From a virus: a stretch of DNA of 38,018 nt. Positions 21,978 to 37,767 of the stretch are shown here, piece after piece (position 1 is the stretch's first letter; each line of letters begins with the position of its first letter). Both the position numbers and the translations under genes were made by a program. The notes under the pieces are model-generated. The model saw only the letters and a list, made by a program, of their open reading frames with translations. It was not told where the DNA came from and did not search any database. The DNA lies in IMG/VR virus record IMGVR_UViG_3300045253_000066, positions 1 to 38,018 of that record; one strand, written 5' to 3'.

Positions 21978-22649
21978 TTATGTGGTCTTGCTGACCTGGT
22001 TCGACTTGTGCGTGCTCACGTACAGGGCCGCCAGAGTCAACAGCTCAGGGGAATCCTTGAACTGTCCAAGCCCCGCGTTGCAGTTCCCACAGAGGAGTGC
22101 ACGCACGGCTCCTGTTTCATGGTCATGATCGACCGACATGGTTTTGGTGCGCCCGCGCCAAGTGCTCGTTTCTGGCATTCGGCAGATCGCGCACAGGCCA
22201 TTTTGACGTTCAAGCATCTCGTTGTACTGGTCCAGCGTGATGCCAAAGACGTTCTCGAGACGCCACTTCCGGTACGTCAGCCTGTTGTTCTGCTGCTCCA
22301 GGGCGCGGCGGCGCTTCCGCTCCTCGGGAGCTAAGGCCTTCCATCGCGCCCTCTCGGACGCACATGAGCACGGCAAGCAATGCGCCGACCGACCGTGCAC
22401 TGCAGCTCGGTCCAGGGCGAACTCGTGTGGCGCCTTGGTCTCGCCGCACCTCTTACATATCTTCGGACCACGTGCAGCAGCCGCGGCTTCGATCTCCCCA
22501 TCGCTGCGGGCCTTGAGCGCATCGCGCGCCACCTTGTTCCGACGGCACACGCACGGCCTGCATTCGGGAGTCAGGCCATCACGAAAGACCTTGTTCTTAT
22601 AGAAGCCTTCGTATGGCTTTTCTTCACCGCAGCTGCTGCACGTCTTCAC
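21978..22649 (-). CDS. free-standing endonuclease VII (HNH) family homing-type nuclease
   Basis: A 223-aa protein, ATG 22649. Two N-terminal zinc-knuckle units (CSSCGEEKPYEGFYKN...CRPC, about 4-34; CKRCGETKAPHEFALD...CLPC, about 65-93) precede a basic linker. The endonuclease VII core follows: YNEMLERQNGLCAICRMPET, SVDHDHETGAVRALLC and GNCNAGLGQFKDSPELL. All Cys/His metal ligands and the catalytic DHDH are present. It lies 36 bases after the major capsid gene and before a terminator, splitting the head genes. This is where homing-type nucleases insert. It may cut the cognate site in rival phages. A T4-like junction-resolving role is an alternative. Confidence 0.85.
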   Translation of the reverse strand: MKTCSSCGEEKPYEGFYKNKVFRDGLTPECRPCVCRRNKVARDALKARSDGEIEAAAAARGPKICKRCGETKAPHEFALDRAAVHGRSAHCLPCSCASERARWKALAPEERKRRRALEQQNNRLTYRKWRLENVFGITLDQYNEMLERQNGLCAICRMPETSTWRGRTKTMSVDHDHETGAVRALLCGNCNAGLGQFKDSPELLTLAALYVSTHKSNQVSKTT

Positions 22650-25005: not shown

Positions 25006-27423
25006 CTACTTCGTACCTGTGTCGGCCGGACCCATCGAGCTACCGCCCAGAACCGGGTCGGTGCCGAGCGGGGAGTTCACGGCCAGCTGCGTGAGCGGTT
25101 CCTGGTAGCGGTCTCCGCCTTCTCGGGCCGGCATGTCCTCGAAGCCGCGGATCTCGTTCGGGTTGAACGCTCCCAACTCGAACATCACCCGGTAGAACTC
25201 CGCGCGAGCGATCGAGTCGCCGCGCAGCAGCTCCGACATGTCGTAGCGCGCGACCTGACCGGAGGTGACCAGTTCCTTGGTGATGCGCTGCTCGGCTGGC
25301 GCGAGCCAGATCGGGTGCAGGTCGTAGGCGGTGAACCCACGGGCCTGCTGCTCGAGCCCGGTGTTGTGGACTACCACGCCGTCAGCGACGTAGTGGGCGT
25401 GCTCCTCCACGGTGATGTCGTAGACCGGGACCTCGATCTTGCCGTGCTCGATGGAGATGACACGCTGCAGGACGACGTCGGAGTGTTCCCACGTGCCGCC
25501 GGGAGTCATCATCATCTCGGGGCGCTTGACCCTGGCGGTCGTCCCGAGCCCACCCTCCCAGTCCTCGGCGTAGCGCAGCTTGCGCCGCATCGGCTCCGTG
25601 CGCAGGTTGGCAAGCTTGTTCGGGTGATTGCTTCCGATCTTGTGGTTCATCGAGGTCATGGACAGGTTGAGCACGTGCTTGTCACGCGAGACGTGCGACT
25701 TGCCCTTGATGTACCCGATACCGCCCCTGCGGGAGAGATGGACGCGACCAACTGGCACGCCGACCGAGATGCACAGGTGCCGGATGTCCTCGAGTAGCGC
25801 CTGGTTGCAGGAAGCGAATGAGATGACGCCGCGAGCAACACCGCCGTCCGCGTCTAAGTACCCACGCAGGAACGCCAGCCGCAGCTCCTCGTTGAGCCGG
25901 AACACCCACCCGGGTACGCGCTTGGTGTGCGCCTTGCCGGTGAACCCGCACTCGAACAGCGAGCGCGCCTGCGCGGAGGAGAACCGGGTCCGAGTGCCAC
26001 GCTTGTCGGTGTAGGGCTTGACGCCGAACTCGCCGCGCATCGACTCGATGTAGTACGGCATGTGCGGGTCGTCGATCGCGTGCGCGATCTCGACACGGTT
26101 CTTGTCCGCGCTGCCGTCGCCGGTGTAGAGCCCGCACAGCTCCATTGCTCGGACGGTCAGTTCGCGGCCGTTCGGTGCGACCCTACGGTCCCCGTCGTTC
26201 AGGCCGTTCGGGGCCAGCAGGAAGTCGCCCGGCTTGATCTCGCCAGCACTAATCTCAACGGTCTCCCACGCGCACTGTCCGTTGATGCGTCCATCCGCCT
26301 TACCGAAGTAGCGGCGGACCGGTACGCGGTGGTTCGCGGTGACTTGGAGCTCGCGTGTACTGGTCTTGATGGTCAACAGCGACTTGTAGCCGGTGGAGTG
26401 CCACGCGGTGACCTTCGCCGGGACCATGCCACCCTGGCTGAACGACCAGACCTCCTCGCCCGGCTCAATGTCCTCGATCTTCTTAGGGCCCGTGGTCGTG
26501 AAGACCAGTGTGTGACCTGGCACACATCCCCAAGATGTAGTTTTTTCGGTCTGGAACATCAAGTACGGCGGGATGCCGAAGAACCGGCACAGCTCGGTGA
26601 CCTCGAAGTCGCGGCTGGCCAGCATCTCCGCGTCGCGGCTGGGCATGGTCATCGACTGGAATTTCGCGCCCGAGTCCAGCACCGGGATCTTGTGCGCGTT
26701 CTCCAGCCCGGAAACGCGCTCGGCCCAGCGTTTCTGTAGCGACTCGGCCTGGGTCTGGGTCAGCTTGCCCTCGGCCTGCAGTAACCCGGAGATCAGGTTG
26801 CCCGAGCCGAACAGCTTCGCCCCGTACCGCTCGGCGGCCAGGGACAACCCCACGGCCTGCGAGGCCGCCCGCACCGGGGACAGGCCCAGCACCGGGTCAT
26901 GGCCCCACGCGGTGATGTGCAGGATCTCCCGGGAGGTCATCGGCACGGTCTTACCGGAGTCGTCGATGACCGAGAAGACCTTGCCGCTCGGGTTCTCGGC
27001 CGTGGGCCGTCCCCGGCCGGGGGTGACCCGGTCCGGGGTGATCGGCCACAGCTCGACCACCTGGCCGCGCTTGTTGTACAGCTTCTGGATATAGGAGTTG
27101 CCCCACAGGCAGCGGTGCGCCCCGGACAGCCGCCAGATCTCCAGCCGGGTCATGTCCGGGTGCGGGTCGGCGAGCAGCCGGTTGGGGATCGGCTTCTTGG
27201 TCGTCTCGTCCATCACCGGCATCGGCAGCGCCCCGCACAGCCCCGAGATCAACGAGGTGGCCCGGTAGACCGCCGCCATCGACTGCGCGGTGCGTTCGGT
27301 GACCGCGATCCCGGAGTCGGTCGGGGTGCCGCCGAACAACGACACCAGCGACAGGTCGGTGAGCGGGACGGTCGGGTTCTCCAGCGACCGGCTGCTCCGC
27401 TCGTTCAACCGGAACAGGGTCAC
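25006..27423 (-). CDS. portal protein interrupted by an intein
   Basis: An 805-aa precursor, GTG 27423, overlapping the small upstream gene (GTGA). Exteins are residues 1-299 and 688-805 (417 aa spliced). They fit the HK97-type portal family: TERTAQSMAAVYRATSLISG, LEIWRLSGAHRCLWGNSYIQ, VTELCRFFGIPPYLMFQTEK, ARGFTAYDLHPIWLAPAEQR. Twelve copies would form the DNA-entry ring. The intein sits between SWG and TGLEQQ, a conserved portal motif. The C-terminus is Gly/Pro-rich. Confidence 0.92.
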   Translation of the reverse strand: MTLFRLNERSSRSLENPTVPLTDLSLVSLFGGTPTDSGIAVTERTAQSMAAVYRATSLISGLCGALPMPVMDETTKKPIPNRLLADPHPDMTRLEIWRLSGAHRCLWGNSYIQKLYNKRGQVVELWPITPDRVTPGRGRPTAENPSGKVFSVIDDSGKTVPMTSREILHITAWGHDPVLGLSPVRAASQAVGLSLAAERYGAKLFGSGNLISGLLQAEGKLTQTQAESLQKRWAERVSGLENAHKIPVLDSGAKFQSMTMPSRDAEMLASRDFEVTELCRFFGIPPYLMFQTEKTTSWGCVPGHTLVFTTTGPKKIEDIEPGEEVWSFSQGGMVPAKVTAWHSTGYKSLLTIKTSTRELQVTANHRVPVRRYFGKADGRINGQCAWETVEISAGEIKPGDFLLAPNGLNDGDRRVAPNGRELTVRAMELCGLYTGDGSADKNRVEIAHAIDDPHMPYYIESMRGEFGVKPYTDKRGTRTRFSSAQARSLFECGFTGKAHTKRVPGWVFRLNEELRLAFLRGYLDADGGVARGVISFASCNQALLEDIRHLCISVGVPVGRVHLSRRGGIGYIKGKSHVSRDKHVLNLSMTSMNHKIGSNHPNKLANLRTEPMRRKLRYAEDWEGGLGTTARVKRPEMMMTPGGTWEHSDVVLQRVISIEHGKIEVPVYDITVEEHAHYVADGVVVHNTGLEQQARGFTAYDLHPIWLAPAEQRITKELVTSGQVARYDMSELLRGDSIARAEFYRVMFELGAFNPNEIRGFEDMPAREGGDRYQEPLTQLAVNSPLGTDPVLGGSSMGPADTGTK
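25363..26526 (-). mobile_element. class 1 intein with LAGLIDADG endonuclease (portal)
   Basis: A 388-aa intein with Cys1 (CVPGHTLVFTTTGPKKIEDI, block A). Block B is LQVTANHRVPV. Block F is VPVYDITVEEHAHYV, and the end is VVVHN followed by Thr+1. All splicing residues are present. Both endonuclease helices are well preserved: LCGLYTGDGSA and FLRGYLDADGG. The element looks active. GC content is close to the exteins, so it is better adapted, and perhaps older, than the minor tail intein. Confidence 0.92.
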
Positions 27424-27578: not shown

Positions 27579-27730
27579 GAGGTTGCGCGTACCATCCGCC
27601 ACCACAGCCGCAGCCGGGTGCGTGCCCGAACCTCCGCGACATGTTCGCCGTCGGAGTACAGGGACGCGCGCCAGCCCCAATAGGTGGGGTAGATGTGCCA
27701 GCGGTTGGTGGTCACGGTCAATGCGCTCAT
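27575..27730 (-). CDS. 51-aa aromatic, basic protein
   Basis: A short gene with ATG 27730 overlapping the tail spike stop (ATGA), and a stop overlapping the next start (ATGA). The product is Trp- and Arg-rich: TTNRWHIYPTYWGWRASLYS then EVRARTRLRLWWRMVRAT. The tight double overlap makes it a real gene. Function unknown. Confidence 0.6.
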   Translation of the reverse strand: MSALTVTTNRWHIYPTYWGWRASLYSDGEHVAEVRARTRLRLWWRMVRATS

Positions 27731-30700
27731 CCGAGAACGATGTTCGCCACTTGCCCTGACGCCCCAGTGGAACCGGTTGTTCCTGTACCCACCCCGGCAC
27801 CGCCGGTTCCGCCGGTGACGGCCGTCGTGCCGCTATTGGTCCACGGAGTCAGCGTGTAACTGATGATCAGGCCACCGCCGCCACCGCCGCCACCGCCGCA
27901 GTTCCCAGTGACCGGAGCGAAGCCGTTACCACCCTTAGCGCTGATCGCGCCGGTGCTGACGAGAGCATGGGCGAAGATGGCGATAACGGCGCCCCCCTCC
28001 CCGCCGCCACCGCCACGGTTGGTGCCATCACCACCGCCGCCACCGCCACCTCCACCACCTACTATGCCTAGGACGGATCCGAAGATGCCGACCGTCCCTG
28101 AGGCGATCGCTTCGGGGCGGCGATACCCCTGGATGGTACTGCTGGAAACCGTGCCGCCAGTACCGGAAGCGCCGGATGATCCAGTCCCCCCGGCGCCTCC
28201 GGCTCCGACACCCAGCGAGCCCGCGATGCCGTTACTGCCCGCACCCGTGTTGCCCGCGCCACCGACGGCCAGCTTCCCAGTTCCAGACCCGGCGACTGCT
28301 CCGGAAGCCGGTGCGGATGCGCCAGCGAAAGTTGTCGCCGCACCACCATCGGCGCTGATGGTGCCATTGTTGGTGACCGTCCCGGTGCAGTAAATGAGCC
28401 CGCCGTTGGTGGCGAGTGTGATCCCGCTGTTCACGGTGAGAGCGGACGGGTAGATATCCCTGGTGAGTGAGTACAACGTGCTGTTGACCTTGGTGATGCC
28501 GCTGTAGGTGTTGACTCCATCGAGCGTGATCACGCCGTCGGACCCGTCGCCGAATAGCCCGCTGTAGAACGCGGCGGCACTATTGTTAGCGTTGATCCAT
28601 TTACTGGTGGATACCTGGTAAGTGAGGATCTGTCCATCATTCAAGGTGGACAGGGTGAGATCGTTGAGCGCGGCGAGGGTGGCTGTCAGGTTCGTAGCGT
28701 TGATGACTACCTGGTTACCGGAGGCGAGGAGTGTCACCGAATCCGAGGACACATCGGTCTTTCCGGTGATTGTCGATACATGCGCCAGCGTGATGGCGTT
28801 CTTAGTGGAGGTACCGGTGATGCGCAGGGCGTTGAGGTCGTTCTGAGCCACAGCGGTGACGATGCAGTTGGAGGCGTCCGAAAGGGACACCGCTGCCGGC
28901 GAGTTGGCCAGGCACACCCACGTAACCCCGCCGTCGGTGACGGTCACGCCGTTTGTAGTCGGCCAGGTTGGTTCGGAGCCCGCGCTGGTTCCGGCCGTGT
29001 AGCAAGCGTAAACGTGCCCGTTGGCGACGGTGGGAACCACGAGACTGGGTTGCCCGGCAGACCGGAAGTTGTTGTAGGCGTGCGACGCCTGCCAGGTGGC
29101 CACCGAGGGCACGAGCCCGCTGGAGGAGGCGCTAGAGAATCCCGCTTGGACTACGGTCCCGTCGAAGATGACGCCCTGCTGGGTCTCCATCCGCAACCCG
29201 GAAAGGCACGACTGCTGCACGTCTATGCTGGACAGAGCGAGTTCTCCCGCTGTCCCCGTCCCGCCGTGGATGTACACGCCGTAGCCCGAGGTGTTGTAGA
29301 ACTTGCAGGCACTGACCTGATTGGAGGAATGGGCGGGCAGCTCCAGGCCGTGTCCGATGGGCTTCTCGGCGGTGGACATGGACAGCTTCGTGTCGAAGTC
29401 CACGGTGAAGCCATTACCGACAGGGAACGATACCTTGACTCCATCGATCAGCACGTCAGAGCGGCCGTGGACGCGGATGCCGTCGCCGCACATGAAGTAG
29501 ATGCGCAGGTTTTTGAATAGGTGTGTGGGGTCGAACTGGTTGTCTCCGCTTTGCGCGGTGGTGTACGGGTTGGTTTCGTGGTAGATGGCGCACCACGGGA
29601 TGACAGCCCCGACCCGGTCGGTCGTGCCACCTTGATAAACGGTGCCCGCCCCGGGGGTTTGCTGTAGCGCCGCGATGGTCGCGGCCTGGGAAAGAACGAT
29701 CGATCCGGTACCTCCACCGGAGGTGATCGTTGTACCGGGCAGGATGCCGACGCCTTGGATGAGAGTGCCGTTCGCGGCGAATGTCCCGGCCGCTGAGGTC
29801 ACCGTCGTGGAAGCGGGTGTCAGCGTGACGTCGGCGAGGATGGTCCCCTGGTTGTCTTTGCGCCCGTCCAGCATGAGATCCCGGATCGAGCACCAAAACG
29901 CATTGGAGTTGCCAGACCCGGTCGAGCGGTGCGTGGTGATCATGTGGCAGTTGGAGTTCGGCAGCAGCTGGATGACACTGGCCGACGCTCCCGCGCCCAT
30001 CAAGTGCACGTTCGACGGCAGATCCAGGGCCGCGCTGATTCGAGTGATCCCGGGCGGGAAGTACACGATCCCGCCCTGGCCGGAGGTGGACACCCCCGCC
30101 GTTCCGAATGAGTTGATCGCGTTCTGGATCGCGGTGGTGTCGTCGGTAGCGCCGTCGACCGCCGCGCCAAAGGTGCGGATGTCGACGGTGGACAGATAGG
30201 ACAGCACCACGTAGTTGACGCTGGATATGAACCCACCGGACGACGACGTAACCGGGGTAGTGATGAGCACCCGAACGTTCTTGGTCAGCGTGACGATGTC
30301 CCACTGGTTGTAGCTGGTGCTGTTCGCTACCGCGCCCCGGTCGACGAACTGCCCCAAACCTAGGTTCGAGCGGCTCGTCGGCACATCAACAACGTCAGAC
30401 AGATTGTTCGCGCGCTGAGTGAACCTTCCGTCCAGCGAAGACTGAGTCTTGAACCCGCCCGTGACCCGCCACCGGCCCGCGTTGGTGCAGTGGTAGGTGA
30501 TGACCTCCCCAAGTAGCGGCACCACCACTGATGTTGTCGATCCGGAACCGAAAACGTCCAATCCAGCTGCGGTCAGGGTAAGCGCGTTTGCTCCAGCGTC
30601 CCACCCGATCGACAACACCGCGCCAGCGGTGGCGGCCGGGAATGGTTGGGAGATCGCGCCGCTGGTGGTGTCGAAACGGGTCAGCTTGGCCAGCATGTCC

Positions 30701-31674
30701 GCCGGGGTGCCCACAGCGGCCGTCTGCGCCGACGAGGAAAACTCGGGCAGATCGACAGCGGCACCAATGTCCCCCGGAGACAACGCATCCGACCCGCCGA
30801 CAGCATGAGTTGTCTTGTGCAGGGTCGGCGTCCTAGCGTCGGACAGCCGCGAATCGTTGCCGATTGCAACCGTGCTCGACGAGCTGCCAGTCGGTAGCTG
30901 TGCGATCGGGACCTTGATGCCTGAGTCCAGGCTGGCGTACCCGCTCGCGGCGCCCTTGGCCGAGGTGTCCTGCTTCAGGTTCAGCGCGGTCTGCTGCGCG
31001 GTACTCACGGGCTTGGAAGCATCCGCCGTATTGTCGACCGAGCCGAGCCCGACATCAGCCTTGACGAGTGACAGCGCCGTCTTCAGGGCGCTGTAGGTCT
31101 TACGGAGCCACCCGGACCCATCCGACGCCACCACTCCCGTCTGGGAGGCGTCCAGGGCGGCGATCGCGGTGAGGTCGGAATCCAGTGGCTGTGCGCCACT
31201 GGCCACACCAGCGATCAACGCCCGAATGTCGGTGTGCGCGGTGCCCGAGGAGTTGTGGGTGTTGACCTTTGCCTGCGACCCGGTGGGAGTCTCTACCGTC
31301 CCGCCCAGCTCGGCCCGCAGCAGGTAAAGCGACGGGGACGGAGCCGGAGGCTGGAGCGTCGTCGGATCGACCAGCAGCGTGCTGACATCGATCGCGGACG
31401 TGTCACCCGCGCCACCCGTCACGGCGACCGGGATGTCGACGTAGATGGCGAACAAGCCGATCGACACGATGCGGACCACGCGGCCACTGCCCGCGGTGGG
31501 AAGCAGGTTGAGCTCCCACCGGGCGGTGTCATCGGAGATAGCCTCGCTGGCGCCAGTGGCGACCGGGTTCTGCAGCGCCGGGCGGGTGGACGGATAGAGC
31601 ACGCACCCCACCCGGGCGCCCGGCTGCGGCTCGCCGCTCTCCGGTTCGAGGGTGTAGCCGAAAATGCGGGTCAT
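27727..31674 (-). CDS. tail spike / fibre with pectate-lyase fold
   Basis: A 1315-aa protein, ATG 31674, overlapping the previous stop. The N-terminal 100 residues are a docking domain. Fibre-type linker repeats follow (about 150-330: AASGYASLDSGIKVPIAQLP, HKTTHAVGGSDALSPGDIGA). A right-handed beta helix of the pectate-lyase superfamily starts at about 495 (VDIRTFGAAVDGATDDTTAI, GGIVYFPPGITRISAALDLP). It carries an inserted beta module (about 610-680) and a WQASHAYNN...PTWPTT binding-type module (about 860-920). The C-terminus from about 1043 (GDGSDGVITLDG) ends in very Gly-rich tracts (about 1130-1315). It probably binds or degrades host surface polysaccharide. Its location between terminase and portal genes is unusual. 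Confidence 0.8.
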   Translation of the reverse strand: MTRIFGYTLEPESGEPQPGARVGCVLYPSTRPALQNPVATGASEAISDDTARWELNLLPTAGSGRVVRIVSIGLFAIYVDIPVAVTGGAGDTSAIDVSTLLVDPTTLQPPAPSPSLYLLRAELGGTVETPTGSQAKVNTHNSSGTAHTDIRALIAGVASGAQPLDSDLTAIAALDASQTGVVASDGSGWLRKTYSALKTALSLVKADVGLGSVDNTADASKPVSTAQQTALNLKQDTSAKGAASGYASLDSGIKVPIAQLPTGSSSSTVAIGNDSRLSDARTPTLHKTTHAVGGSDALSPGDIGAAVDLPEFSSSAQTAAVGTPADMLAKLTRFDTTSGAISQPFPAATAGAVLSIGWDAGANALTLTAAGLDVFGSGSTTSVVVPLLGEVITYHCTNAGRWRVTGGFKTQSSLDGRFTQRANNLSDVVDVPTSRSNLGLGQFVDRGAVANSTSYNQWDIVTLTKNVRVLITTPVTSSSGGFISSVNYVVLSYLSTVDIRTFGAAVDGATDDTTAIQNAINSFGTAGVSTSGQGGIVYFPPGITRISAALDLPSNVHLMGAGASASVIQLLPNSNCHMITTHRSTGSGNSNAFWCSIRDLMLDGRKDNQGTILADVTLTPASTTVTSAAGTFAANGTLIQGVGILPGTTITSGGGTGSIVLSQAATIAALQQTPGAGTVYQGGTTDRVGAVIPWCAIYHETNPYTTAQSGDNQFDPTHLFKNLRIYFMCGDGIRVHGRSDVLIDGVKVSFPVGNGFTVDFDTKLSMSTAEKPIGHGLELPAHSSNQVSACKFYNTSGYGVYIHGGTGTAGELALSSIDVQQSCLSGLRMETQQGVIFDGTVVQAGFSSASSSGLVPSVATWQASHAYNNFRSAGQPSLVVPTVANGHVYACYTAGTSAGSEPTWPTTNGVTVTDGGVTWVCLANSPAAVSLSDASNCIVTAVAQNDLNALRITGTSTKNAITLAHVSTITGKTDVSSDSVTLLASGNQVVINATNLTATLAALNDLTLSTLNDGQILTYQVSTSKWINANNSAAAFYSGLFGDGSDGVITLDGVNTYSGITKVNSTLYSLTRDIYPSALTVNSGITLATNGGLIYCTGTVTNNGTISADGGAATTFAGASAPASGAVAGSGTGKLAVGGAGNTGAGSNGIAGSLGVGAGGAGGTGSSGASGTGGTVSSSTIQGYRRPEAIASGTVGIFGSVLGIVGGGGGGGGGGDGTNRGGGGGEGGAVIAIFAHALVSTGAISAKGGNGFAPVTGNCGGGGGGGGGLIISYTLTPWTNSGTTAVTGGTGGAGVGTGTTGSTGASGQVANIVLG

Positions 31675-31903: not shown

Positions 31904-34654
31904 TCACCACAGATTCGGGACCATGTCCGGTTCGGCCAGCGCGCCGTGCTCAATCGCCCAGCCTCGCGCCTCGTAGGCGAGCAGGGCGGCGGTGAACGCG
32001 CTGATGGACTGGGCGTGGGACTTGCGCACGATGCGCTGGTAGTGCTCGGGCTGGCCGGGCTCGCGTTCCTCAGCGGCCGGGCGCTTCTTACCGGCGGCCA
32101 GGGCGGCACCGGCGGCGTGCAAGCTCAACGTCTCGGACCCGTCATGGGTGATCTCGTCGCCCCGGTGCGCGGTCATGAACCGCTCCACCAGCTGGTCCAT
32201 CCGCATCTCGGAGTTGAGCCAGATCTCCAGCACCTTCGCTTCGCCCTCAGCGTCGTACTCGCCCGCCCAGGTGTCGACCTCGGTCTGCCAGCCGTGCGGG
32301 CTCGCCATCATCGACAGCACGTCGTAAGCCGCGAACGCGTCGCGGACCGCCGCGTGCACCTCGGCGCGCGGCGTGGACCAGTCGCCCTCGTGGCCGTAGG
32401 GGCGCTCCCACGTGCGTAGGTGGAACAGCCGGCCGTCGGACAGTCGGGCCGCGCACAGGGACGTGGCGTCGCGGGTCACGGCGCCGTGGAAGCCGAGGGT
32501 GATGCGATCGCCGGGCTCGAGCTGCTCGCCGGGGCGGGCTTGGGTCGCCCACTTGAGCATGTCGACGGCGTTGCGGGAGCCGACGGTGACCTCGTTGAGG
32601 AAGAAGCGGCGGGCTTCGTGCTCACCGGTCGCGGCGTCGCGCGCCTCTTCCATGATCCGGTCGATGTTGACCCAGCCGCCGTTCTCCTGCGCGGCGTCGC
32701 CGTAGACGTAGAGCAGCTCCGCCCGCAGCGCCTGGTCGTCCTCCAGGTCCACGTGCGTGCGCGGCGGGCGGTAATCCAGGAACACCCCGGGAGCCTTGGC
32801 CTCCCAGGTCCGCTGCGCCACGGAGCGCTCGGAAGGGTCCCAGGCGTTGGTGCAGTTGTGGGTCAATGTGTTGTGTCGGCCCACAACGAACAGATGATCG
32901 TCAGTGTCGATCCCGAGACAACGCGTGGGCACCGAAGCGACAGGCTCGACCGACTTGATGAACCGACGGTTGGAAGCCGCTCCGCGGATGTCCCGGTGCC
33001 TCGCACGCTTGTACGCCAGGTTGTTCACTGGCTCGTCGCTCGTGGGCACGAACTTCACGCAGTAAGCAGCTCGACCACGTTCCGGGTAGTTGTAGCAGCG
33101 GATATACGCCTTGTGACCCAACGAGATGGCCAGCTCCAAGGTCTGACGGGCCAACCTCTCATTGGTATTGCTGAACATCGCCGCCCTCGCGGAGGTCATG
33201 GTGCCGTCGGAGTCCATCAGCCCGCGCAAAAGAGCCAATCGTTGAGCCCGCGAAGCGAGGAGATACTGGGCCGGGATGTGCTTGTTGTTCAGCACTCCGA
33301 TCGCGCGCAAACGCTCGCGCATAGTCATCGTGGCGACAGTCGCTCGGGGTTCCCGACGCTGGCATGCGCCACAGGTGACCGACGGACGGCCGGTGCGCAA
33401 GGTTCCGTTGCCCATCTCGTCGTCAGACCAGTCATGGCCCCACTTGCACAGTCGGTGCTTCCGCTTGGGACGGAAGATCGTGCAATGCGGCTTGTGGTCC
33501 ACCACGAGCTCCTCATGTTCGAGGAGAGTGCTCTTCAGTAAGACGCCGAGTTCACCAGCGACGTTGTGTGCGGAGCACACTGTCGAGTCGTCACTAGCCC
33601 CGTCGCCCAGCCATAGACCCAGGTAGTAAGGGTCAACAGGCAGATCCGGCTGCTCGACACCCTCTACTGCTACGCGGGGCACCGACAGGTTCCACTGGCG
33701 GCCGTTCAGGAAAATCGCCAGCTCTTTCGTGCTCAACGTGACCTCAGCCTCGTCGGTGCGGCAAGGCCTCTTCCGGTGGCTCCGCTTCACTGTCCAGCTG
33801 TGGCACGCACTCGCCACGATCGATTCACCGTCATCGAATACCACGCGGTAGCACGGAAGATTCTCAAACACCGGCGTGACCCGCCGGACCTCCACCGGTT
33901 GACCGTCGCTTCCGTACACGGTGTCGCCAGGCTCGACCTCGCCGATCGTGGACCAGCCCGCAGGAGTCGGCACGGGAGTGTCCAGCGCCAGTGGTTCCAT
34001 CCACCGGCCGTCCATGCCGGCCAGGCCACGCTTCATCGTCCGAGCCATCGCCATGCCACCGCTGGACTCGGTGTAGAGCCCGCTCTCTGTCAGGGTGGCG
34101 AACGTGATCCGGGCTCCAAGTCGAGACTTCGCGGCGGCTGTGACCGGCTCAATACGGCCACCGGTCGGCAAGTTCACCCGGGTCAGGCCAACGTCCAGAC
34201 CAGGCGTGATATTGACGGGACCTTCGCCGAGCATCGTGTAGATCAGCCGGAACGTGTTATCAGTTTGATCTTCCGAGTTCGCCGCGCATTGAATCCACGG
34301 CGTAGGCATCGGAGCACCGACGGGCTCACCAGCGGCATCCCACCCGTCGAACCGCACAGGCCCCAGAGCCTGCACGCACGCCTGAGCAGCGGCAAGTGGA
34401 TCTTTGCCGCTCTTCTGGCCGCGCACGTACAGCGACCCGTAGTACACGAACGCCTGCGATCCCATGTCCGGCCGAGCATGCGGCTTGAGCCGGTAAGACC
34501 ACAGCATGTGCCGGTACTGATCATCGGTCAGGATAAAGGGCTGTCCACGCTTCGGACCGTCCGGAATGATGATGTTGGATTCGATCCAGTCGATCACCGT
34601 GAAGCCAAGCGTGGGGAAAGCTCCCGGTGATCCGTCGCCACCCGACCAGGGCAT
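31904..34654 (-). CDS. terL: terminase large subunit (TerL) interrupted by an intein
   Basis: A 916-aa precursor. ATG 34654 is chosen because it overlaps the stop of a leader ORF (TGATG) and gives the MPWSGG...FPTLGFTVIDWIESN opening typical of this actinophage family. A GTG at 34696 is the alternative. The ATPase part has LYVRGQKSGKDPLAAAQ (Walker A), ITFATLTESGLY (Walker B region) and TNAWDPSE (coupling motif). The nuclease part is LGFHGAVTRDATSLCAARLS, MMASPHGWQTEVDTWAGE and SISAFTAALLAYEARG. Several positions that are Asp in relatives I know (GFDGS, ADPxxW, IDAA) are His or Ser here, and Walker B Asp is Thr. TerL powers DNA packaging and cuts the genome. The spliced protein is 536 aa. Confidence 0.88.
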   Translation of the reverse strand: MPWSGGDGSPGAFPTLGFTVIDWIESNIIIPDGPKRGQPFILTDDQYRHMLWSYRLKPHARPDMGSQAFVYYGSLYVRGQKSGKDPLAAAQACVQALGPVRFDGWDAAGEPVGAPMPTPWIQCAANSEDQTDNTFRLIYTMLGEGPVNITPGLDVGLTRVNLPTGGRIEPVTAAAKSRLGARITFATLTESGLYTESSGGMAMARTMKRGLAGMDGRWMEPLALDTPVPTPAGWSTIGEVEPGDTVYGSDGQPVEVRRVTPVFENLPCYRVVFDDGESIVASACHSWTVKRSHRKRPCRTDEAEVTLSTKELAIFLNGRQWNLSVPRVAVEGVEQPDLPVDPYYLGLWLGDGASDDSTVCSAHNVAGELGVLLKSTLLEHEELVVDHKPHCTIFRPKRKHRLCKWGHDWSDDEMGNGTLRTGRPSVTCGACQRREPRATVATMTMRERLRAIGVLNNKHIPAQYLLASRAQRLALLRGLMDSDGTMTSARAAMFSNTNERLARQTLELAISLGHKAYIRCYNYPERGRAAYCVKFVPTSDEPVNNLAYKRARHRDIRGAASNRRFIKSVEPVASVPTRCLGIDTDDHLFVVGRHNTLTHNCTNAWDPSERSVAQRTWEAKAPGVFLDYRPPRTHVDLEDDQALRAELLYVYGDAAQENGGWVNIDRIMEEARDAATGEHEARRFFLNEVTVGSRNAVDMLKWATQARPGEQLEPGDRITLGFHGAVTRDATSLCAARLSDGRLFHLRTWERPYGHEGDWSTPRAEVHAAVRDAFAAYDVLSMMASPHGWQTEVDTWAGEYDAEGEAKVLEIWLNSEMRMDQLVERFMTAHRGDEITHDGSETLSLHAAGAALAAGKKRPAAEEREPGQPEHYQRIVRKSHAQSISAFTAALLAYEARGWAIEHGALAEPDMVPNLW
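32855..33994 (-). mobile_element. class 3 type intein with LAGLIDADG endonuclease (TerL)
   Basis: A 380-aa intein starting at Pro, with no Cys/Ser nucleophile: PLALDTPVPTPAGWSTIGEV. It has the Trp-Cys-Thr set of class 3 inteins: Trp in CHSWTVK (block B), Cys in VPTRCLGIDT (block F) and Thr in the final NTLTHN. The following residue is Cys+1. The endonuclease helices are YYLGLWLGDGA and LLRGLMDSDG, and between them a CKWGHD...CGAC pair may bind zinc. It interrupts TerL directly before the TNAWDP coupling motif. Confidence 0.88.
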
Positions 34655-37574: not shown

Positions 37575-37767
37575 CGGACACCTCCTTGATCAAAGTGACT
37601 TCTTAACCCGTACACACCGCGAATGACCGGGGACGTGAGGCAGCGGTCATGATCGGCTAGACTTTTCGTTACTCTCCGCTGTCGACCCCGCCGGCGTGCC
37701 GTCGAGCTCGAGGCAGGCCGTTGACCAGCATGTATGCACACTCACTTGTGCTCGAAGGGCCGAGGGT

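Follow-up and report, generated by a model that had tools for sequence, protein, structure and literature searches.

Walker acid exchange and loss of the nuclease acids in a lineage of HK97-type phage large terminases

In a clade of uncultured tailed soil phages, the large terminase (TerL) has lost the three nuclease Asp residues that are conserved in its canonical relatives along with the Asp of its Walker B motif, and carries an Asp directly after the Walker A Lys instead. Tailed-phage TerLs are taken to combine motor and cutting functions; in this clade, the ATPase that packages the genome and the nuclease that cuts it would be separated. On balance, we favor an explanation in which the ATPase of this protein, hereafter TerL1, is kept in a rewired form, its nuclease is dead, and a cos-like site is cut, most probably by an HNH endonuclease. 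The DNA from which the analysis proceeds is IMG/VR record IMGVR_UViG_3300045253_000066, one strand of 38,018 bases that is referred to throughout as the window (Table 1).

An HK97-type large terminase

The TerL1 gene of the window encodes a precursor in which an intein separates two exteins, and the motifs GQKSGKDP, TLTES, GFHGA, ASPHGW, and SISAF can be read directly in its sequence. Both exteins matched PHROG terminase families in profile searches and were folded confidently by AlphaFold2, with the intein portion folding without confidence. For the TerL of the closest full relative, L002, the AlphaFold2 model reached a mean pLDDT of 90, and Foldseek identified the HK97 TerL as its best PDB match. 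An ASCE ATPase joined to an RNase-H-fold nuclease was evident from the AlphaFold2 models, from Foldseek matches to the HK97, D6E, and T4 TerLs and the G20c nuclease, and from a profile match to the HK97 TerL structure 6z6d (E 7e-13; Foldseek 4e-23), with which TerL1 shares the fold, the profile family, the Walker A Lys, and the Walker B Glu. In the family profile, GFDG and IDAA fell opposite their Asp-motif counterparts in the HK97 enzyme, and the HK97-type gene order of terS, terL, portal, protease, and capsid is present. TerL1 is an HK97-type large terminase; the kin of the clade are actinobacterial phages, in keeping with the original prediction of an actinophage TerL family.

Table 1 Features of the window and of TerL2; coordinates refer to the window unless a locus is given.
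Feature	Coordinates	Strand	Details and evidence
TerL1 precursor CDS	34654..31904	-	916 aa = N-extein 220 + intein 380 + C-extein 316
TerL N-extein (ATPase domain, 220 aa)	33995..34654	-	phrog_9/19179 matches; AlphaFold2 pLDDT ~90 here
Intein, 380 aa, class-3-type, LAGLIDADG endonuclease domain	32855..33994	-	Pfam LAGLIDADG_3 5.8e-7; PDB 6rix 4.8e-23
TerL C-extein (lid + RNase-H-fold nuclease domain, 316 aa + stop)	31904..32854	-	phrog_21277
Asp85 codon, after Walker A Lys (GKDP)	34400..34402	-	sequence, alignment, covariation
Walker B Thr189-Glu190 (TLTES; Asp to Thr, Glu kept)	34085..34090	-	sequence, alignment
His343 replacing nuclease Asp 1 (GFHG for GFDG)	32486..32488	-	sequence, alignment
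Ser405 replacing nuclease Asp 2 (ASP for xDP)	32300..32302	-	sequence, alignment
Ser505 replacing nuclease Asp 3 (ISAF for IDAx)	32000..32002	-	sequence, alignment
Terminase small subunit terS, 145 aa	37137..37574	-	PF25673 Terminase_7 3.8e-8; homolog in 5/5 long clade genomes compared
TGTACGGGT element, 20 nt inside predicted left genome end	37606..37614	-	in-register contig ends
Putative cos overhang CGCTGCCTCAC, 11 nt (predicted length)	37635..37645	-	between predicted right end 37646 and left end 37634
HNH endonuclease, C-terminal 73 aa (gene cut by contig end)	37797..38018	-	PF01844 5.1e-6; family in clade genomes
Portal protein with own intein (portal residues ~299-688)	25006..27423	-	TIGR01537 1.1e-54; TIGR01443/01445; PF14890
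TerL2, second, catalytically complete TerL (phrog_38), opposite strand of clade genomes	L100:432-1934	-	related to TerLs from Streptomyces phages and from satellites

Loss of the nuclease acids across a clade

A scan of viral contigs recovered approximately 20 close relatives of TerL1 at 60-83% identity, nearly all of them intein-free at this site, along with a graded series of canonical TerLs. The clade genomes span ~67-71 kb and are known from metagenomes alone. Database comparison returned no named phage above ~37% identity to TerL1, and the sole genome match, a 69-kb contig inside a Nocardioides MAG, is probably a binned phage. The nearest canonical N-exteins, 45-55% identical, belong to sister TerLs (L021-L037 and L272-L303, with G033 as a complete-looking genome). 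These sisters share with the clade the gene order, an HNH ortholog, and the TGTACGGGT element near the genome end, but differ in combining GKG or GKS with a Walker B DE, in keeping the nuclease acids as D/D/D (L296 being a partial exception), in ends that mostly lie 14 nt from that element, in HNH proteins that mostly lack the central Asn, and in having no second terminase of the kind described below.

Residue statistics were compiled in spliced numbering for 34 aligned canonical relatives and 19 clade members. Positions 343, 405, and 505 are Asp in 34/34 of the former and in 0/19 of the latter, counts that, like the others given here, are confounded by phylogeny; the three nuclease Asp that the original prediction had listed as changed thus coincide exactly with conserved Asp columns. 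Together with Walker B position 189, the extein alignment places the losses at four Asp columns, all four being lost in 19/19 clade members, which accords with the distinct TerL lineage that had been raised as a possibility. The clade-wide motifs read GKDP, [TFML]TE, GF[H/T/L/F]G, x[S/T/N/A/F]P, and IS[AP]. Four residue types occur at position 343 and five at position 405, and Ser505 is invariant across the clade and hence not drifting. The drift at 343 and 405, taken with the invariance of Asp85 and Thr189, is as expected if the ATPase site alone were still constrained. Column statistics revealed no substitute acids at the three nuclease motifs, the acids gained by the clade falling outside of them; in the alignment, the nuclease acids are lost without visible compensation.

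The dN/dS ratios of 0.04-0.08 for the whole TerL1 gene in the closest clade pairs, equally low for the C-extein alone, indicate that TerL1 is under purifying selection. A pseudogene or a sequencing error is ruled out by the 19 clade members that share the changes, by their open frames, and by the low dN/dS, the same observations that uphold the earlier view that this is not simple decay. Judged by sequence, the changed residues are a trait of a distinct TerL lineage rather than chance or a single decayed copy. With the fold kept and all three metal-binding acids gone, the usual two-metal cutting would be impossible for TerL1, and its nuclease domain presumably still serves the motor by binding DNA or as a structural element.

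Beyond the clade, apparent acid losses in the remote TerLs L048, L058, L063, L065, L171, and L172 were left uncounted, the alignment there being unsure. Four TerLs with canonical Walker motifs deviate at two or three of the nuclease acids, namely L296 (F/E/D), L038 (H/N/N), L054 (K/D/S), and L056 (K/D/T), and could possibly represent independent nuclease losses.

An acid exchanged between Walker A and Walker B

At position 189, the canonical relatives possess Asp (33/34) or Glu (1/34), and Thr is found in 19/19 clade members. The catalytic Walker B Glu190 is kept in 19/19, the Walker A Lys84 is invariant, and Asp85 is found in all 18 clade members with data, the outgroups reading GKS or GKG. 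The two Walker positions covary across a wider set of 174 non-redundant TerLs, in which all 54 proteins with Asp after the Walker A Lys have a non-acidic Walker B residue (Thr in 14, Asn in 40). The remaining 120 have Gly, Ser, Ala, or Thr after the Lys, Asp being found there in 0/120, and a Walker B Asp (119) or Glu (1). When the diagnostic columns were masked for tree building, monophyly was recovered for both the Thr and the Asn group (support 1.0 each), with canonical groups between them, so the exchange arose at least two times independently. The cultured mycobacteriophage Medusa (L173) contributes a TerL to the Asn group, as do L192-L271; in these, GKDP is paired with NE. Medusa-type TerLs thus resemble the clade in GKDP and a non-acidic Walker B, but form a separate tree clade, keep the nuclease D/D/D intact, and use Asn where the clade uses Thr.

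A structural rationale is offered by the P-loop ATPase ClpB, in which Mg2+ is bound by the Walker A Thr and its water shell by the Walker B Asp (PMC3940203); by this geometry, an Asp on either Walker side could serve. The same exchange in TerLs like that of Medusa suggests that the TerL1 motor is probably active. The ATPase acid was probably relocated from Walker B to Walker A, leaving an ATPase that is rewired rather than dead and that would be retained with Asp after the Walker A Lys, Thr in Walker B, and the catalytic Glu in place. The original prediction had flagged a Thr-Glu Walker B, a departure at GKDP, and the loss of the ATPase acid. Both substitutions stand, but the catalytic Glu is kept, GKDP is no mere oddity given its invariance and its covariation with the loss of the Walker B Asp, and the 54/54 versus 0/120 split replaces the idea of a lost acid with that of a moved one. 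Arising apparently twice, and once in cultured mycobacteriophages, the exchange is a testable exception to the textbook P-loop motif.

Fixed cos-like genome ends upstream of terS

Eight clade contigs start in register at one motif just upstream of terS, 20 nt before TGTACGGGT, with a mean in-register identity of 0.57 at the contig starts versus 0.25 for shifted controls. Matching right ends (...TGAC) are present in G009 (71 kb) and G011 (67 kb). The joined site is spanned in the window, in G005, and in L114, where 10-11 extra bases lie between the right-end and left-end sequences. The absence of these 10-11 nt between the ends of linear contigs is as expected if 3' overhangs had been lost. That clade contigs end in register at one cos-like site indicates that the DNA is still cut site-specifically, and the contig ends point to fixed, cos-like genome ends upstream of terS with putative overhangs. 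Among canonical relatives, of which G033 is an example, ends lie 13-15 nt from TGTACGGGT in 20/27 contigs with a match, L004 and L019 being assigned to the clade for this comparison. A change in the spacing of the ends from TGTACGGGT accompanies the nuclease loss.

An HNH endonuclease as the candidate cutter

On the same strand and upstream of terS, every clade record that reaches far enough carries an HNH endonuclease gene, which in several genomes lies 3-7 kb from terS. The central Asn of HNH motifs, which is not known to be strictly catalytic, is carried by all clade copies versus ~3/15 canonical sister-group records. A regular-expression result that confined the HNH gene to the clade was refuted by a profile search, which detected orthologs, most of them without the central Asn, beside canonical TerLs; the gene is therefore ancestral and not specific to the nuclease loss.

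Cleavage of cos in HK97 is promoted by the HNH protein gp74, in company with a TerL that has a D153/E154 Walker B (PMC9410871) and nuclease aspartates of its own. An HNH partner and a cos site may likewise be present in the clade, but there TerL1 has Thr in Walker B, Asp in Walker A, and no nuclease acids. The HNH protein, which the original prediction had suggested might do the cutting, emerges as the best candidate: the cos-like site just upstream of terS would most probably be cut by this conserved endonuclease, in a role like that of gp74 but without help from a TerL nuclease. A nuclease-dead TerL combined with defined ends and an HNH partner would provide a clean natural test of whether an HNH protein alone cuts cos. 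Within the head module of the window, an ORF resembling endonuclease VII (21978-22649, minus strand) was discarded as a cutter, having no homolog in five long relatives.

A second terminase in most long clade genomes

Six of the eight long clade genomes (G002, G006, G009, G011, G016, and G018) encode a second TerL of the phrog_38 type, TerL2, positioned on the opposite strand ~38-43 kb downstream of TerL1, with canonical Walker A and Walker B motifs and intact D...D/E...DDxxDA nuclease motifs. Two TerLs within one phage genome would be unusual; the proposition of a single TerL per genome, based on phrog_9, PF03237, PF04466, and PF05876, was dropped when wider annotation revealed TerL2. The clade TerL2 is 33-37% identical to phrog_38 TerLs of Streptomyces and Microbacterium phages and of satellites (MiniFlayer, Mulchroom). 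In those phages and satellites this protein is the annotated terminase, whereas in the clade it is the second TerL. Some TerL2-type phages among the matches possess annotated terminal repeats rather than cos-like ends.

TerL2 was undetected by profile in G004 (69 kb) and G005 (68 kb), both of which carry the same, apparently dead, TerL1, and no other TerL was found in these two genomes by phrog_9, phrog_38, PF03237, PF04466, or PF05876. It was present in 0/10 canonical sister-group records searched, and undetected in the window, which may end before its position. A phrog_2 match was rejected as an extra terminase, since the profile hits 13/14 controls and the match overlaps a RuvB-like gene. 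As for other contents of the two long genomes without a detected TerL2, G004 encodes an FtsK/SpoIIIE-like protein (L089:5866-8079) and G005 an integrase (L093:8826-10088).

Competing explanations

Most of the long clade genomes encode TerL2, with its complete Walker and nuclease motifs, whereas the sister-group records searched yielded none, which invites the explanation that TerL2 has taken over the nuclease function, and perhaps the terminase function as a whole, leaving TerL1 as a motor-only or accessory protein. We consider this unlikely. G004 and G005 have the same TerL1 without a detected TerL2, and L006/G003, which is closely related to G005, shares the cos-like end site; the clade ends at the ancestral terS1 site, as do canonical relatives that are devoid of TerL2, and some phages with a TerL2-type enzyme carry terminal repeats. 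The window, albeit possibly too short, likewise yielded no TerL2. The ends at the ancestral terS1 site, shared by G003, favor the HNH protein over TerL2. A stricter form of the HNH explanation, in which the HNH protein alone replaces the TerL nuclease at a shifted cos position and the motor uses an acid switched between Walker A and Walker B, is plausible, and we advance it tentatively.

It is improbable that the TerL1 nuclease still works by means of other residues or a non-standard metal site. The models show a preserved fold at high confidence, the C-extein is as constrained as the rest of the gene, and two conserved acids, Asp349 and Asp453, lie within the nuclease domain; but Asp349 is equally conserved in canonical relatives and so is no new ligand, the clade-specific acids lie away from the three motifs, and positions 343 and 405 vary freely. 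Least probable of all, and in our view very doubtful, is that TerL1 is a wholly inactive pseudo-terminase with a role in assembly or regulation, packaging being done by something else. Both catalytic sites do depart from consensus, yet Lys84, Asp85, Thr189, and Glu190 are invariant in the clade, the pairing of Asp with a non-acidic Walker B residue occurs in annotated TerLs of cultured phages such as Medusa, and the five profiles found no alternative TerL in G004 and G005.

Inteins and other features of the window

Between the TerL and portal genes, a pectate-lyase-like ORF of 1315 aa (27727-31674, minus strand) has no homolog in five long relatives.

The TerL1 intein is inserted in the C-motif region, between ME and CTNAW, and possesses Pro at position 1, HSW in block B, the block F Cys in TRCLGID, a TLTHN end, and Cys+1. 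Both of its ends were matched by PDB chain 6rix, a match to class-3-like DnaB inteins. By the definition of class 3 inteins (PMC5222942), these sequence features are consistent with class 3; the intein is apparently complete, as previously proposed, and splicing is predicted. It has in common with the class 3 inteins of mycobacteriophage TerL and mycobacterial DnaB (PMC5050341, PMC5222942) the lack of an N-terminal nucleophile, the block F Cys, and the block B Trp, and shows no essential difference from them; in the mycobacteriophage examples, the host protein is likewise TerL. The TerL relatives L025 and L026 harbor a different intein, located within Walker A before SGKDP.
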